Origin: Candidatus Cloacimonadota bacterium
GTDB taxonomy: Bacteria > Cloacimonadota > Cloacimonadia > Cloacimonadales > TCS61
Reading direction: 5' to 3'
Length of the DNA stretch: 64,000 nt
Assembly: GCA_021736135.1 (NCBI GenBank)
Contig: JAIPGO010000005.1
Coordinates: 1-64,000 of the forward strand
Part shown: piece after piece, positions 27,480-35,626 of the stretch
How the letters are laid out: the number at the start of each line of letters is the position of its first letter
Numbering within the stretch: position 1 is the first letter of the stretch
Made by a program: the position numbers and the translations under genes
The notes under the pieces: generated by a model
Told to the model about the DNA's origin: nothing
Seen by the model: only the letters and a program-made list of their open reading frames with translations
Databases searched by the model: none

Positions 27480-27890
27480 ATGATCCATGTATACCGGAGG
27501 CGGGTATTTGGTTATGAGTGTGATATTTATGGGCACTTGAACAATGCTAATTACCTGCATTTATATGAAGAGGCACGCTCTGTATTTCTGGAAGATATAG
27601 ATTTGCCGGTGCGCAAACTGATGAGTATGGGTATTGCGATCTATGTGACAAAAGTAAATTTAGAATTTATCAAGGGAATTCTACTTGAATCTGAGGTTGT
27701 GATCAAAAGCTGGGTAGTATCAGGCAGCCGTTTAAGGGGCTTATGGCAGCAGGAGATGTTCGTTGCTGATGAACTTTGCAGCCGCATCACCATCGAAGGT
27801 GTATATGCCTCAAATGGCAAACCACGCCGCCTGCCGCCAGAGGTCTGGGTGGTTTTTGAAAAATATATTAACAAACAAAGAGACTTATGA
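27480..27890 (+). CDS. Acyl-CoA thioesterase, 4HBT/YbgC-like
   Basis: YECDIYGHLNNANYLHLYEEAR hotdog-fold motif. Confidence 0.82.
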   Translation: MIHVYRRRVFGYECDIYGHLNNANYLHLYEEARSVFLEDIDLPVRKLMSMGIAIYVTKVNLEFIKGILLESEVVIKSWVVSGSRLRGLWQQEMFVADELCSRITIEGVYASNGKPRRLPPEVWVVFEKYINKQRDL

Positions 27891-27923: not shown

Positions 27924-30908
27924 CTAAAAATCTTCCATGAGCCAGAAATAGTAGTTTGGTTTACTGGAATTGACCAGGTCGGTCTGCCAGGCGATGTCGA
28001 ATTTGAGGATAAAGAAACCAAGATTGAAGCGGGGACCAAAGCCTATTCCCATTCGGGCATCTTTTAACTGAGCATAATTCCAGAAAACAAAATCCTTTTC
28101 TTCGTCCCAGACGGCACCCAGATCAATGAAAACCGAGCCTCTCACACCGCTCATTCTGATAGGAAAAGGAAAAGCCAGGGTGAGATTATCGATGAGCGGA
28201 TAACGCAGTTCCGTGCTGAAAAGAAATTTTCTTTTCCCGTCGAGGTCGTTGTCATTAAAACCGCGCACCCCATTAAAGCCGGTGAGTTCGAATCCGGTAA
28301 ACTCATCGCTATCTGTCCAGGCAGCAATAAGCCTATTTGCCCAGGAATAGCGTTTAGCAAAGAATTTGTAATTCCTGAGATCAGCATAGATCATATTATA
28401 ATCTTTTTTAGTGGAAAAACTGTGCTGTAAAGAGAGATATTGTTTACCACCTGCAATTGGACCCACGTAGCCATAGAGTGTATTATCATGTACGATGCTC
28501 AGTTTCGGTGCAACAAGATAGTCATTTTCATCCGGTTGCCAGCCCTCAATCCAGTCTCCGTTATACTTATCCCACCAGTCCCAGAACGTCTGATGACGGA
28601 GCACCGCCAGTTGCGTTTCCAGGCGCCAGTATTTATCGAAAGGATGGAGCATAATGCCATAGAAGCCGTATTGCCGGTCTCTGGCGCGGAAATAGTCATC
28701 ATTTGCGTTACGATAAAGAGTTTCGTCATTCAGATAGAAAACACCTCCACCATAATCATCACGGCGCGTTAGATCAAGATATTGAAAACTGAAGCTGGAA
28801 CTTTCTATTTCACCGGACACGTTAAAACTGCTGTATAGGGAATGATTACCGAGGATATCACTTGCCCAGATATTAAGCAGGGCATAAGTACCGGTGGAGT
28901 TATAGGCGAGACCGCCCCAGAAGTTATCAATTTTCCATTTCAGTTTATAGGGAATGATCTCAGGCTCGTTTTCTTCAGTAGGACGCCGGTCAATACGCCG
29001 GTTTTCTTCCACTATGGTTGTATCAGGACCATAATCAATTTTTATGTCATACATTTCGGCGAGTTCGGGATCGATATTCTGATGAGAAGCCGGTTTCTTG
29101 AAGGCGAGATTGGTTTTCCCGAAATAGCGGATACGTTCAATATCATAACGCTCCCAGAAATCATCAGCCAGTTTTACTTTCTGAGGAAGGTGAGAATCCT
29201 GCCATTGGAGGCTGTCCAGCGGAGCAGTTTTCTGAAACAAATCCCAGGCTCCATTATAAAAACAGGAGAGCAGTATGTATTCATCATTACGGCTTAGATC
29301 AAAATTGAGAACTCCGCAGAGCACATCAGTCACCTGTGCTTCTCTGGCATTTTTTAGATCAATGATGCGTATATTGGTGATCATATCTTCATCTGAAATG
29401 TAAAGGATCTTAGAGCCATCAGCGCTCCAGACAGGGTTATAGTTATCGCTGGCGCTATCTGTGACCTGGTAAAATTCATTTGATTCCAGATCACAATAAT
29501 AGATATTGCGCACGGATTTATCAAAAATATGCAGATTTTCCCGGGATTGGAGTGGGAGCCTTTCAGAATAGAAAACTATGTGCTTGCCATCAGACGACCA
29601 GCGTGGTGCACCATCATAATATTTGTCTTGCGTGAGTTGCTGCAGCGTTTCCTGTTCCAGGTCATAAATAAAAATATCTGTGGAAGTACCTTTAATACCG
29701 TTAAAAACTATCTTTTTACCATCCGGTGAAACATCCAGTTCATAAACAACATTGATGGAATCAAAACTAACGGACTTCGCGATATGTTCTTTATTTACAT
29801 CGAGAATCTGAATGCGGTCACCGAAAGAAGTATTAGCAGCAAAGGCAATTCTTTTACCATCGGGAAACCAGCTCAGGTTATTACGCTTGAAATGGAATTC
29901 TTCCAGTTCTCCGGTCACGGCACTGCGAATCAATTCCCGGTCATTTCCCAGATCGCTACGGTCGGCAAACCAGATCCCATCAGTAAGTTTCCGGTTGGCG
30001 AACCAGGCATAACGCAGACCTTCGGGTGCATAGCGCGGTGCTACATTCATGGAAGAACCATCTTTTTGAGAATCAGTTCTTCTTTCATAGACCTCATAAG
30101 GCACCCGATAATCATTGTACATGGCAAAATACCGGCGTTTCAGAGAATTTTCCCAACGCTGCTGCAGTTCCAGGAAAGGAACATTGAAAATTCTTTTCAT
30201 CATGGCATTCTGAGTATCGCTGCGGGCCGAGTAAAAAATATCCATCACCTTATCTCTGCCATATTCCTGCTCAATAAAATTCAGAAAGGATTCGCCTTCC
30301 CGATAAGCATAATAACCTCCGACTTCTTCCAGGTTGATAAGATTGTTGTTAAGCACTAGATCAATAATGAACATATTGTTATAAGTGCGTTTACCATTAA
30401 TGGAGATAAATTCCGGTAATCCTTCGCTAAGCCAGAAAGGCAAAGAACGTCTGCCGGTATTTCCAATCCTCCCTCGTGATAGTTCATTAACATAAGCATG
30501 TGTCATTTCGTGGATCAGGGTTTGCTCCATTTCACGGTAACTGCCGGAAAAAGGCATCACAACGCGATTATTCATGCTTTCAGTAAAACCGCCTACGCCT
30601 TCGCTGAGCAGATTGGGAATTACGTTAGTAGATTCAAATTCCTGATGAGTACTATAAAAAATTATGGGAATGCGCTGCTTGACAGGAGTTCTGAAATCTT
30701 CTCTGATATAGTAGTATGCTTCTTCAGCACATAAAGCCACGATTTTGCCAAAGTCATCATCACGCGCTGGATAATAGATGTCAAAATGCATAGTCTGGAT
30801 ATTATTCCAGTCAATCTTCTGTGGCTGGATCTTGTTCTTGCCGAAATACTGGGCAATGAGTGGGAATGCTAAGGTGAACAAGATAGAAATAAGCAGGAAT
30901 TTTTTCAT
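27924..30908 (-). CDS. Gluzincin metalloprotease-like + PD40/TolB propeller + Omp85/BamA-like barrel fusion
   Basis: HEMTHAYVNELSRG...WLSEGLPEF; repeated SPDGKKIVF/SSDGKHIVF/SADGSKILY; FNGVRGFNDNDLDGKRKFLFSTELRYPL...FIDLGAVWD...GIGFGPRFNL. Confidence 0.82.
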   Translation of the reverse strand: MKKFLLISILFTLAFPLIAQYFGKNKIQPQKIDWNNIQTMHFDIYYPARDDDFGKIVALCAEEAYYYIREDFRTPVKQRIPIIFYSTHQEFESTNVIPNLLSEGVGGFTESMNNRVVMPFSGSYREMEQTLIHEMTHAYVNELSRGRIGNTGRRSLPFWLSEGLPEFISINGKRTYNNMFIIDLVLNNNLINLEEVGGYYAYREGESFLNFIEQEYGRDKVMDIFYSARSDTQNAMMKRIFNVPFLELQQRWENSLKRRYFAMYNDYRVPYEVYERRTDSQKDGSSMNVAPRYAPEGLRYAWFANRKLTDGIWFADRSDLGNDRELIRSAVTGELEEFHFKRNNLSWFPDGKRIAFAANTSFGDRIQILDVNKEHIAKSVSFDSINVVYELDVSPDGKKIVFNGIKGTSTDIFIYDLEQETLQQLTQDKYYDGAPRWSSDGKHIVFYSERLPLQSRENLHIFDKSVRNIYYCDLESNEFYQVTDSASDNYNPVWSADGSKILYISDEDMITNIRIIDLKNAREAQVTDVLCGVLNFDLSRNDEYILLSCFYNGAWDLFQKTAPLDSLQWQDSHLPQKVKLADDFWERYDIERIRYFGKTNLAFKKPASHQNIDPELAEMYDIKIDYGPDTTIVEENRRIDRRPTEENEPEIIPYKLKWKIDNFWGGLAYNSTGTYALLNIWASDILGNHSLYSSFNVSGEIESSSFSFQYLDLTRRDDYGGGVFYLNDETLYRNANDDYFRARDRQYGFYGIMLHPFDKYWRLETQLAVLRHQTFWDWWDKYNGDWIEGWQPDENDYLVAPKLSIVHDNTLYGYVGPIAGGKQYLSLQHSFSTKKDYNMIYADLRNYKFFAKRYSWANRLIAAWTDSDEFTGFELTGFNGVRGFNDNDLDGKRKFLFSTELRYPLIDNLTLAFPFPIRMSGVRGSVFIDLGAVWDEEKDFVFWNYAQLKDARMGIGFGPRFNLGFFILKFDIAWQTDLVNSSKPNYYFWLMEDF

Positions 30909-30911
30909 AAT

Positions 30912-31790
30912 TTAAAAAACTTTTACACTAAAATATTTTTTAGGATTATTCTTTATATCAGCCAGCAGGCTGTCCAGTCCGGCAACTGACTGCAGCAGAG
31001 AACGATATAGTTCATCATTACCTGTCAATTCACCCAGGGTTGAATGCTCATTCTGCAGTTTTTCCACGAGTTGCTGCAGAGAGATGTTTGTTTTATTCAG
31101 ATCCGTGACCAGTTGTTCTGTACCGGTAATAGTACTGTCAATTCTAGCGCTGTTATTTTCCAGCAGAAGCAGGATGCCGGCTGTTATCTTTTCCAGATTA
31201 ACTATCAATTCATCAATATTACCGTCATTCCGTTCCAGAAGTTCATTGACGTTCTTAACGCCAAGCTGCAGGGAATCGGCAAGCCGGGAATATTTGCTGA
31301 CGATGTTATCGGAAGAATTAAGCTCTTTGAGAAATATTTTCAGTTCCGTCATAATATCTTCGGCTTCACTGAGCACACTGGAAAATCCCGAAGCTGTTTT
31401 GCCTTCCAGTATCTTGTCAACGGGGAGAAATGATTTGCCTTTTCCGGGAACCAGAATAATGCGCGTGCTGCCCATAACGGAAGTGTTTTTTACCCAGAAT
31501 TCGCTGCCCTGACGCAGAGGTTCGTCCAGTTTAACGGCAATATCCACCAGTACGCGGTCAATATCAAGCCTGATATCGGAAACTTTACCGCGATTAACTC
31601 CCAGAATTAAAACCCCATCACCGAGTTCCAGGCTGCCAACTTCCGGAAAAGCAATGGTCATACTGGTCATTCTGCCCCGTTCCAGGTAATTTATCAGCCA
31701 GAGATAACCGAAAACCAGAATGGTAATACTGACAATAACGAATAAGCCGACATTAAAGTTTGTGCGACTCTGTTTTTCATAAAATTTCAT
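30912..31790 (-). CDS. MlaD/MCE-family protein
   Basis: N-terminal TM then FPEVGSLELGDGVLILGVNRGKVSDIRL, SEFWVKNTSVMGSTRIILVPGKG. Confidence 0.85.
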   Translation of the reverse strand: MKFYEKQSRTNFNVGLFVIVSITILVFGYLWLINYLERGRMTSMTIAFPEVGSLELGDGVLILGVNRGKVSDIRLDIDRVLVDIAVKLDEPLRQGSEFWVKNTSVMGSTRIILVPGKGKSFLPVDKILEGKTASGFSSVLSEAEDIMTELKIFLKELNSSDNIVSKYSRLADSLQLGVKNVNELLERNDGNIDELIVNLEKITAGILLLLENNSARIDSTITGTEQLVTDLNKTNISLQQLVEKLQNEHSTLGELTGNDELYRSLLQSVAGLDSLLADIKNNPKKYFSVKVF

Positions 31791-32530
31791 ATTTCTATCC
31801 TGTCCGTGGAATACAGGAATCTTCTGATCCTGCTGTCTCCGGCATTTTTAAATTCATCAAGATTACCGTCAAAGATTATATCAGTATCAGCAAGCATAAC
31901 GATCCTGCCTCCTATTCTTTCGATGCAGTAGAGGTCGTGGGTAACGATGATGGTTGCCACTTCCTGCTGCTGATGAAGATTTTTGATTAATTCAATGATT
32001 TCCCCGGCAATAACAGGATCAAGTCCAGTAGTTGGTTCATCATAGATGATATATTTAGGGTTAGTAATAATGGCACGTGCCAGAGCTACGCGTTTCTTCA
32101 TCCCGCCGCTGAGTTCGGAAGGAAAACGTTTCATTATTCCGCTCAAACCAACCATTGCCAGTTTATCAGTTACCTGCTGGAATATTTCACTTTCAGACAG
32201 CCGTGTGTGCTCCAGCAGAGGCAAGGCAACATTCTGATAAACATTGAGCGAATCTAAAAGAGCACTACCCTGAAATAGCATTGCCAGTTTCTGACGGATG
32301 AGCAATGCAGATTGCCCGCGGCTGTTTTGAAGGTCCTCTCCGTCAATGATGACGCTGCCTTCGTCGTGTGGCAGCAGCCCATCGATGATCTTCACCAGCA
32401 CACTTTTACCACTACCGCTTTGACCTACGATGAGCAATGTTTCCTGTTCCCTGATCTGAAGATTAATGTTTTGCAGAACAGATTGTTCATTAAATCCGAT
32501 ACTGATATTCTTCAGTTCGATCATAAGCAC
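31787..32530 (-). CDS. MlaF-like ABC transporter ATP-binding protein
   Basis: GQSGSGKSVLVK, ELSGGMKKRVALARAI, YIIYDEPTTGLDPV. Confidence 0.9.
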   Translation of the reverse strand: MLMIELKNISIGFNEQSVLQNINLQIREQETLLIVGQSGSGKSVLVKIIDGLLPHDEGSVIIDGEDLQNSRGQSALLIRQKLAMLFQGSALLDSLNVYQNVALPLLEHTRLSESEIFQQVTDKLAMVGLSGIMKRFPSELSGGMKKRVALARAIITNPKYIIYDEPTTGLDPVIAGEIIELIKNLHQQQEVATIIVTHDLYCIERIGGRIVMLADTDIIFDGNLDEFKNAGDSRIRRFLYSTDRIEI

Positions 32531-33816
32531 ATCTCCAGAAGCACACCATCACGGAAAACGCCTACAGATCTTCCCTTTACCAGGTCACCAGCGGCAGAGT
32601 TACCAACCTCAAAATACGCCCTTACATAATGATCGCTGAGCAGAGTATAATAACCATCCTGCCTGTTTTCCACGCTCCCGCTGAGAATAATATTATCCTT
32701 GATCAGTCTGTTCATATATAGGTCTTTTTTAGTAAGAGAAAGCTGCAAAAGCTTATCTACTCTCGCTTTAATAATAGTGCCATTTATCTGTTGCGGCATA
32801 GACCAGGCTTTTGTACCTGGTCGCCGGGAAAAGGGAAATACGTGCAGATATGCTATCGGCAGCTCCTGAAGAAACCGGTAGGTTTCTGTAAATATTGCGT
32901 CAGTTTCTCCAGGCAATCCGGTGATCACGTCCAATCCCAGTGCTGCATCGGGCATAATCTGCAGAATTTTATGCAATATTTCTTTAAAGTCTGCAATCGT
33001 ATAATGTCTGCCCATAGAATGCAGCAGCACATCACTACCGGTTTGCAGAGGAATATGGAAATGAGGACATATCTTTTTACTCCTGGCGATCTGCTGCAAT
33101 ACGGATTCATTAAAAAGCTGCGGTTCCAGAGAAGAGATCCTGATCTTTTCCACCCCTTTGATTTCGTCCATGTCAGCTAATAGATTTTCCAGGTGATAAT
33201 CACCCTCTTGGTCATAGCCGTATAATCCCAGGTTTATACCGGAAATGACGAATTCCCGAAATCCCTGCGTCACCAGTTGCTGCACCTGTGCCAGAATATT
33301 TTCCCGCTGGCGGCTGCGCGAGGGACCACGTGCCCAGGCCACCGCACAATAAGCACAAAAAAAATTGCAGCCATCCTGTATTTTGATAAAGGCACGACTG
33401 CGATCCGGCATATTACCTGTGCTGTGTTCGCTATATTCTATTGCCTGGATAATATCCTGAAATTCCGGAACAAAATCTTCCGTAACGGCTTTATATATCA
33501 AGTTCTTCTTGTTATTATCAATCACCAGGTCAATATTTCCCAGTTTCCTGACATCTTCCTCATTTCTCTGGGTATAACAGCCGGTAACGACGACTTTTGC
33601 CTGCGGGTATAATTCCTTCATCTTCAAGGCTTTGCGAATGGCATTACGACTCTTGAAATCTGTCCGGTTCGTCACTGTGCAGGTATTGATGAGATAAACG
33701 TCTGCCTCACTGCTGAAATCCGTCTTTTCCCAGCCTCTGGACAAGAAATCATCCATTATGCAACTGGTTTCATACTGGTTCTGCTTACATCCTAACGTAA
33801 CGGCAGTTATTTTCAT
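32521..33816 (-). CDS. mtaB: tRNA (N6-threonylcarbamoyladenosine) methylthiotransferase MtaB
   Basis: TLGCKQNQYET, NTCTVT, IKIQDGCNFFCAYC radical SAM, TGLPGETD. Confidence 0.88.
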   Translation of the reverse strand: MKITAVTLGCKQNQYETSCIMDDFLSRGWEKTDFSSEADVYLINTCTVTNRTDFKSRNAIRKALKMKELYPQAKVVVTGCYTQRNEEDVRKLGNIDLVIDNNKKNLIYKAVTEDFVPEFQDIIQAIEYSEHSTGNMPDRSRAFIKIQDGCNFFCAYCAVAWARGPSRSRQRENILAQVQQLVTQGFREFVISGINLGLYGYDQEGDYHLENLLADMDEIKGVEKIRISSLEPQLFNESVLQQIARSKKICPHFHIPLQTGSDVLLHSMGRHYTIADFKEILHKILQIMPDAALGLDVITGLPGETDAIFTETYRFLQELPIAYLHVFPFSRRPGTKAWSMPQQINGTIIKARVDKLLQLSLTKKDLYMNRLIKDNIILSGSVENRQDGYYTLLSDHYVRAYFEVGNSAAGDLVKGRSVGVFRDGVLLEMCL

Positions 33817-33835: not shown

Positions 33836-35626
33836 TTATTCGTCTTTGCGGAGAATAAGCAAGCCCAGTTCCTCAAGCTGTTTTTCGTCAACAATGCCCG
33901 GAGCGTCGCTCATCATGTCTACTGCCTGCAGGCTTTTGGGGAAAGCGATCACGTCACGCAGACTCGCAGCTCTGGTCATGAGCATCACCATCCGGTCTAT
34001 ACCGGGAGCTATTCCGCCATGCGGTGGCGTGCCATATTTGAGTGCGGTGAGGAAAAATCCGAATTTCCGCTGCAGTTCTTCTTCAGTGAAACCAAGAACG
34101 TCAAATATCTTGCGCTGGATATCCAGACGGTGACATCTGATACTGCCGGAAGAAAGTTCCACTCCGTTGCATACCAGGTCATATAGCTGTCCGTCAATCT
34201 TATCCAGAGAATTTTCTTCTTCAAAATAATGCAAATGCTCTTCCTTGGGCATGGTGAACATGTGATGCATGGTTTCCCATCTGGCAGCATCTTCATTGTA
34301 TTCAAACATAGGGAATTCCGTCACCCACAAAAAATTAAATTCCGCCGGAACATAAAGCTGCAGTTCTCGCCCGAAATAGTTCCTGATTTCTGCCAGCACT
34401 TTAAAAACAATTTTATCAGAATCCGCGACAAAAAGCAACAGATCCCCATCCTGGGCGGACGAAGCCTTGATGATTTCCAGCTTTTCCTCATCTGATAAAA
34501 ACTTGCTGATCCCGGCAGTCAGATCTCCTTCCAGTACTTTGCAGAAGGCCAGTCCTTTGCCACCCAGATGTTTGGCAATATCGGTCAATCCGTCAATCTG
34601 TTTGCGTGAATATTCTGCACATCCGGGGACTGCCACACAGCGTATGGAGCCGCCATTTTCCAGGGCATCCTTAAACACTTTAAATTCACTGGCGCTCACG
34701 ATTCCGCTCAAATCTGTCAATTCCATACCAAAACGGAGGTCAGGTTTATCAATACCGAAACGCCGCATAGATTCACGATAGGTCAAACGCGGGAACGGGA
34801 TTTGCAAATCAATATCCAGGCATTTCTTAAAAACGTATTTAAATAATTCTTCATTAATGGTGAAAATGTCATCGGGAGTAATAAAACTCATTTCCATATC
34901 AAGCTGAGTAAATTCCGGCTGGCGATCTGCCCGCAGGTCTTCATCACGAAAGCAGCGTGCAATCTGAAAATATCTATCAAAACCGGCTATCATCAGAAGC
35001 TGTTTATAGATCTGCGGACTCTGGGGAAGGGCAAAAAATTTCCCGGGATATACACGGCTGGGTACCAGGTAATCACGGGCACCTTCCGGAGTGCTTTTCA
35101 TCAAAGTCGGCGTCTCGATTTCATAAAATCCCCGTTCATTCAAGAATTCACGAATAGCAAAAATCACCTGGTGCCGTTTCAATATTTTTTCTTTCAAAAC
35201 AGGACGCCGCAAATCAAGATAACGGTATTGCAGACGTAGATTTTCATCTGCCAGAATCTTATCATTGATCTGCACCGGCAACGGTTCTGATATATTGAGC
35301 AGCAAAAGTTCATCTGCTTCCACTTCGATCTCACCTGTTGCCATATCCGTATTCATATTACCTTCGCTGCGGGGTTTTACGGTGCCGGTTATCCCGATCA
35401 CAAACTCATTACGCAATCTATGCGCTTTTTCCTGCAAAGCTTCCTTCTCCGGCTGAAAAACAACCTGCACAATTCCAGTCACATCCCGAAGATCAATAAA
35501 AATCAAATTACCCAGATCACGCCTGCGATGCACCCAGCCCATAAGCGTTACCTGCTGCCCTTTTTGAGCCATTCCTAATTCACCCGCATTATGACTGCGC
35601 TTCGTTTTTCCTAATAAATCAAGCAT
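33836..35626 (-). CDS. aspS: Aspartyl-tRNA synthetase
   Basis: [57 protein letters not shown]. Confidence 0.96.

Follow-up and report, generated by a model that had tools for sequence, protein, structure and literature searches.

What is the task of a protein that joins a peptidase, a beta-propeller and an Omp85 barrel in one chain, and is it tied to the MCE transporter genes beside which it is encoded? The question is raised by a locus of a Candidatus Cloacimonadota bacterium (contig JAIPGO010000005.1), which lies in a window of 64,000 nucleotides, the whole stretch of DNA that was analysed. The locus comprises the following genes.

27924..30908, minus strand: peptidase-propeller-Omp85 gene (P0001, 994 aa; ORF list, Pfam, alignment and model)
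30912..31790, minus strand: MCE/MlaD-like protein (MCE_B; P0002, 292 aa), with a TM helix, a single MCE domain, long helices and no barrel
31787..32530, minus strand: MlaF-like ATPase (MlaF_B; P0003, 247 aa)
32521..33816, minus strand: mtaB (431 aa), an operon neighbour outside the proposed function
33836..35626, minus strand: aspS, at the head of the likely operon
35665-35637: promoter-like site ahead of aspS, by consensus match only

All four reading frames named in a preliminary description of this DNA (the 994-aa, MCE, ATPase and MtaB frames) were found. As it had claimed, the 994-aa gene lies directly downstream of the MlaD-like and MlaF-like genes, 3 bp from mce, and mlaF and mtaB overlap, by 10 bp; mlaF also overlaps mce by 4 bp, and the 994-aa frame is the end of this tight run. 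Since a promoter-like site precedes aspS, the genes aspS-mtaB-mlaF-mce-omp85 probably form a single transcript. Pfam assigns MlaD to P0002 and ABC_tran to P0003; an MCE protein with a TM helix and an MlaF-type ATPase are what an Mla-type MCE transporter calls for. The C-terminus of the MCE protein carries a conserved LDSLLxDIKKNPKKYF sequence. PADLOC gave no match for the barrel protein or the MCE protein. A convergent 4HBT thioesterase gene (window 27480-27890) adjoins the barrel gene at its 3' end; elsewhere it is found near the barrel gene in genomes G004 and G019 only.

The 994-aa protein is built from the following parts.

30852..30908, minus strand: signal peptide, aa 1-19, type I-like, without lipobox Cys (sequence)
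30825..30845, minus strand: FGKNKIQ motif at the mature N-terminus; G23, N25 and K26 invariant in 42 homologues; also present in a barrel-less Salinibacter homologue
30111..30809, minus strand: Peptidase_MA_2 (gluzincin-type) domain, aa ~34-266 (Pfam, model)
30498..30512, minus strand: HEMTH motif, predicted zinc-binding/catalytic, aa 133-137 (sequence, alignment)
30423..30425, minus strand: E162, predicted third zinc ligand, invariant in the alignment
29175..30050, minus strand: TolB-like PD40 beta-propeller, aa ~287-578 (Pfam, model, Foldseek)
27933..28937, minus strand: Omp85 barrel of 16 strands, aa 658-992 (Pfam, model, Foldseek)
28257..28268, minus strand: VRGF loop-6 motif, aa 881-884 (sequence, alignment, model)

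Each element of the architecture that had been read from the letters was recovered: the signal peptide, the gluzincin-like domain with its HEMTH...E residues, the PD40/TolB propeller and the BamA-like barrel with VRGF. Pfam matches on P0001 are PD40 (E 2e-21), Omp85 (1.5e-10) and Peptidase_MA_2 (3e-8, barely above the cut-off). Among the 42 homologues, Peptidase_MA_2 and PD40 are matched in all and Omp85 in 25; the alignment keeps H133, E134, H137, E162, R882 of the VRGF loop and the C-terminal F994 invariant. An inactive protease is not supported, as these active-site residues do not vary and HExxH occurs in all non-truncated homologues examined. The AlphaFold2 model (mean pLDDT 83.9, pTM 0.81) folds the C-terminus as a 16-stranded Omp85 barrel, with VRGF inside the long loop joining strands 11 and 12, so the outcome that could have overturned the barrel assignment did not occur. 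Foldseek matches the propeller to TolB and the barrel to BamA and TamA. The signal peptide and the C-terminal Phe are consistent with an outer-membrane location. Pfam found no POTRA domain in P0001 or the 42 homologues, and no M48 or TPR in P0001.

The Cloacimonadota belong to the FCB group. The barrel protein is present in 117 of 125 genomes of the phylum, nearly always in single copy, and in 70 of the 71 good genomes (completeness of 90% or more, contamination of 5% or less). The peptidase-propeller-Omp85 gene is therefore a single-copy core gene of Cloacimonadota; Candidatus Stygibacter frigidus, at 65%, is the nearest named relative. With the alignment as query, homologous loci were collected from a genome collection and 80 were kept, all from Cloacimonadota except one (L179) titled Armatimonadetes bacterium. 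This label is probably an error, because the locus carries an mlaF-mce-omp85 run of the same barrel-protein family at 45% identity. Beyond Cloacimonadota the search was confined to a plasmid set, where a 633-aa Salinibacter ruber protein (L273:5938-7839) was found. It possesses the peptidase, the propeller and the FGKNK motif without the barrel (30% identity across 12-533, E 1e-60), and it shows that the peptidase-propeller module is older or can be separated.

MCE is the next gene upstream of the barrel gene in 68 of the 73 loci with enough upstream sequence to identify the neighbour, often overlapping it or 0-15 bp apart. Adjacency unique to one genome, the finding that would have spoken against its significance, is thus ruled out. 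The order's other families, outside that of the window, keep mce-omp85 in 18 of 21 loci, while mlaF, mtaB and aspS are no longer near; the three exceptions make up family f9, where MCE_B is located elsewhere. Because the mtaB-mlaF-mce-omp85 order appears again in the deepest clade, it is probably ancestral. Two local peculiarities were seen. In the deepest clade, the barrel gene is followed by a gene for a lipoprotein-like TPR/FG-GAP/UnbV protein of ~840 aa (L244:10964-13489; equivalents in L243, L245, L246 and L248). Family f9 carries an extra MlaE and a 220-aa MlaF-like protein near the barrel gene (L073:875-2322, L071:15021-16459), with no MCE gene alongside; the Walker A region of the MlaF-like protein appears degenerate (NSGLST).

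The preliminary description had also noted MCE and MlaF genes without an MlaE permease. This holds for the locus, where no mlaE is present, but not for the genome, in which a search for mlaE elsewhere found two such genes along with two MCE genes. One mlaE belongs to a second, complete MCE operon (L081:229-5147; C108 in the source genome) of the order MCE_A, PqiC-like lipoprotein, STAS-MlaE and MlaF. Its lipoprotein consists of a PqiC-like (ABC_trans_aux) part fused to a weak DUF481 match; in G039 (L166:3389-5679) the PqiC-like lipoprotein is split into two ORFs. The other mlaE is an orphan (L082:8533-9288; C24 in the source genome; also L120-L159), placed beside dnaB, with a solute-binding protein gene and then trmL after it. 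This setting is conserved across the order and unlinked from any MCE or MlaF gene. Of the 71 good genomes, 64 have both MCE_B and MlaE_B and three have neither, while one lacks only MCE_B and three lack only MlaE_B (Fisher p 0.0014, uncorrected for kinship). The orphan has been lost together with the window's mce and shares its phyletic profile, so the dnaB-linked MlaE is likely the missing permease for the MlaF and MCE proteins of the window, a pairing made on phyletic grounds. A permease-less MCE system can be ruled out, as mlaE is unlinked yet present and profile-matched. MlaA and MlaC were not seen at the loci examined.

The genomes lacking both genes are informative about the barrel protein itself. 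Joint absence of MCE_B and MlaE_B occurs in three separate places: G002 of family f1, whose sister G018 kept the set; genera g47/g48 of family f13; and family f12. In G002 the MlaF_B orthologue is absent too. All of these lineages, at least three, keep the barrel protein, and no relaxed constraint after MCE loss was seen: 3-5 of ~114 near-invariant positions are changed, as in MCE-bearing controls, and those of peptidase, propeller and barrel are equally intact in both groups. Judging from this unrelaxed retention, the core role of the barrel protein cannot depend on this MCE system.

We hypothesize, at roughly even chances, that the protein acts in quality control, as a protease/assembly protein anchored in the outer membrane and coupled to MCE transport. 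The Omp85 barrel would sit in the outer membrane and hold the TolB-like propeller and the putative zinc metallopeptidase in the periplasm, with outer-membrane biogenesis and quality control as its most likely job. The propeller may bind an envelope client, the barrel may position this presumed client at the membrane or help to insert it, and the peptidase may process or remove clients that fail. One chain would then cover work that is split in E. coli among BamA-type barrels, propeller adaptors and the protease BepA, and the operon would couple it to an MCE transporter whose subunits are encoded by the adjacent mce and mlaF and by the dnaB-linked mlaE. Parts of such a role have precedents in BepA, described as acting in LptD quality control in the accessible part of PMC8423444, and in PlpD, whose enzyme domain remains periplasmic according to the part of PMC11116518 available. 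Both functions now under discussion had been suggested beforehand; quality control fits better, given the persistence of an unrelaxed protein after MCE loss, and an outer-membrane partnership with MCE as the only role does not. Three points count against the quality-control reading: the near-strict MCE adjacency points to a lipid-related function, which would be superfluous for a general protease; a protein with no POTRA domain cannot simply be credited with BamA-type assembly activity; and the Peptidase_MA_2 match of P0001 taken alone barely passes the cut-off.

The adjacency could instead mean that the barrel protein forms the outer-membrane terminus of a lipid conduit built on MCE, in which MCE would form the periplasmic tube, MlaF and the dnaB-linked MlaE would supply power, the Omp85-propeller part would serve as a docking and exchange port and the peptidase as a regulator; both the contact with MCE and the direction in which lipids would move are presumed here. 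We regard this as possible but somewhat unlikely. It would account for mce-omp85 being the only pair of window neighbours kept in the other families of the order, and for MCE standing next to the barrel gene in 68 of 73 informative loci, often closely spaced. The MCE protein has long helices but no barrel, and the genome's other MCE operon has a PqiC-like lipoprotein of its own. Most MlaD proteins lack an outer-membrane barrel, none with one was found in the FCB group, and partner proteins yet to be identified have been suggested (PMC10665443). Distance matrices of 28 genomes give the barrel protein partial r values of 0.64 with MCE_B and 0.85 with MlaE_B, against 0.07 for TrmL and 0.51 for the solute-binding protein; the controls are few, and the two values do not lie far above the second. 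The correlation, being partly common to an unrelated gene, is suggestive only. Intact barrel proteins in the MCE-lacking lineages and the displaced MCE_B of family f9 also argue against the conduit. The narrower proposal that an Omp85 barrel gated by propeller and metallopeptidase is the very port missing from barrel-less FCB MlaD systems is, in our estimation, unlikely.

A barrel that merely anchors a periplasmic enzyme, as in PlpD (PMC11116518, available part), would neither assemble proteins nor move lipids, and MCE adjacency would then be ordinary clustering of envelope genes. The Salinibacter ruber version, which shares the peptidase, the propeller and the FGKNK motif, indicates that the module can work without a barrel. 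However, conservation of the barrel roughly equals that of the peptidase and extends to R882 and D929/G931, for which a bare anchor would have no use, and MCE adjacency outlasts all other local order; we find this explanation rather improbable. Even less credit can be given to mce-omp85 as a passive relic of an ancestral operon with unrelated functions. Such a relic would be in keeping with mtaB and aspS, clearly unrelated in function, standing in the same run, and with the recurrence of mtaB-mlaF-mce-omp85 in the deepest clade, but the links to mtaB, mlaF and aspS were broken in other families while mce-omp85 stayed together, tightly spaced.

Comparison with known systems places the protein in an existing class. 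With a propeller N-terminal to an Omp85 barrel and no POTRA (Pfam, model and Foldseek), it resembles the WD40-Omp85 subfamily of Heinz and Lithgow (2014), defined in the accessible part of PMC4104836 by an N-terminal WD40/TolB-like propeller, no POTRA and a C-terminal Omp85 barrel. That class was described without a known function, and a BamA-BamB-like platform was suggested (PMC4104836, accessible part). The protein described here differs from it in the gluzincin-type peptidase before the propeller, the phylum-wide core status and the MCE linkage, none of which appears in the accessible text of PMC4104836; the 'Metallo' Omp85 subfamily described there has another domain (PF00149). The proteins described here may themselves belong to the 2014 sequence set. 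In the open-access literature, no other paper was found that describes the peptidase module, the conservation throughout the phylum or the MCE linkage; to that extent these three appear new, while propeller-Omp85 proteins without POTRA were already known.

The 16-stranded barrel, the loop-6 VRGF and the C-terminal Phe are shared with BamA and TamA, whereas POTRA is lacking, and BamA and TamA-TamB are encoded separately in the genome. These and patatin-Omp85 paralogues are separate genes (C89 and C76 match POTRA), so the barrel protein is not the only Omp85 protein of the genome. It is not the organism's BamA either, since a separate 766-aa Omp85 gene has the strongest Omp85 match. TolB, the best PDB match by sequence and fold, has the same PD40 propeller, which here is fused into one chain, with no TolB N-terminal domain matched. 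BepA, an M48 metallopeptidase, would be similar as a zinc metallopeptidase, proposed in our case for outer-membrane assembly; it differs in peptidase family, and the Cloacimonadota protein has no matched TPR and is tethered to its own barrel. PlpD likewise combines a periplasmic enzyme domain with an Omp85 barrel, but its enzyme is lipase-type rather than a peptidase, and it has a POTRA domain. The Veillonella MlaEFD transenvelope bridge (PMC10665443) is a minimal MCE-MlaE-MlaF set without MlaA/MlaC that implies an outer-membrane barrel, a make-up that the loci examined here would share; there the barrel is within MlaD, whereas in our case a separate Omp85 protein would provide it, with mlaE unlinked.

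How MCE systems reach the outer membrane in the FCB group, where MlaD lacks a barrel, is an open question (PMC10665443), and the barrel protein is a phylum-wide candidate encoded beside an MCE gene. The orphan mlaE beside dnaB illustrates that the genes of an MCE transporter can be dispersed, and such transporters will escape surveys that require a gene cluster. For the WD40-Omp85 class, described in 2014 (PMC4104836, accessible part), the proposed role offers a concrete, testable function. Quality control would take a compact form in a core outer-membrane protein that carries its own protease, and the protein described here is a good candidate for a so far unrecognised component of outer-membrane maintenance in Cloacimonadota.
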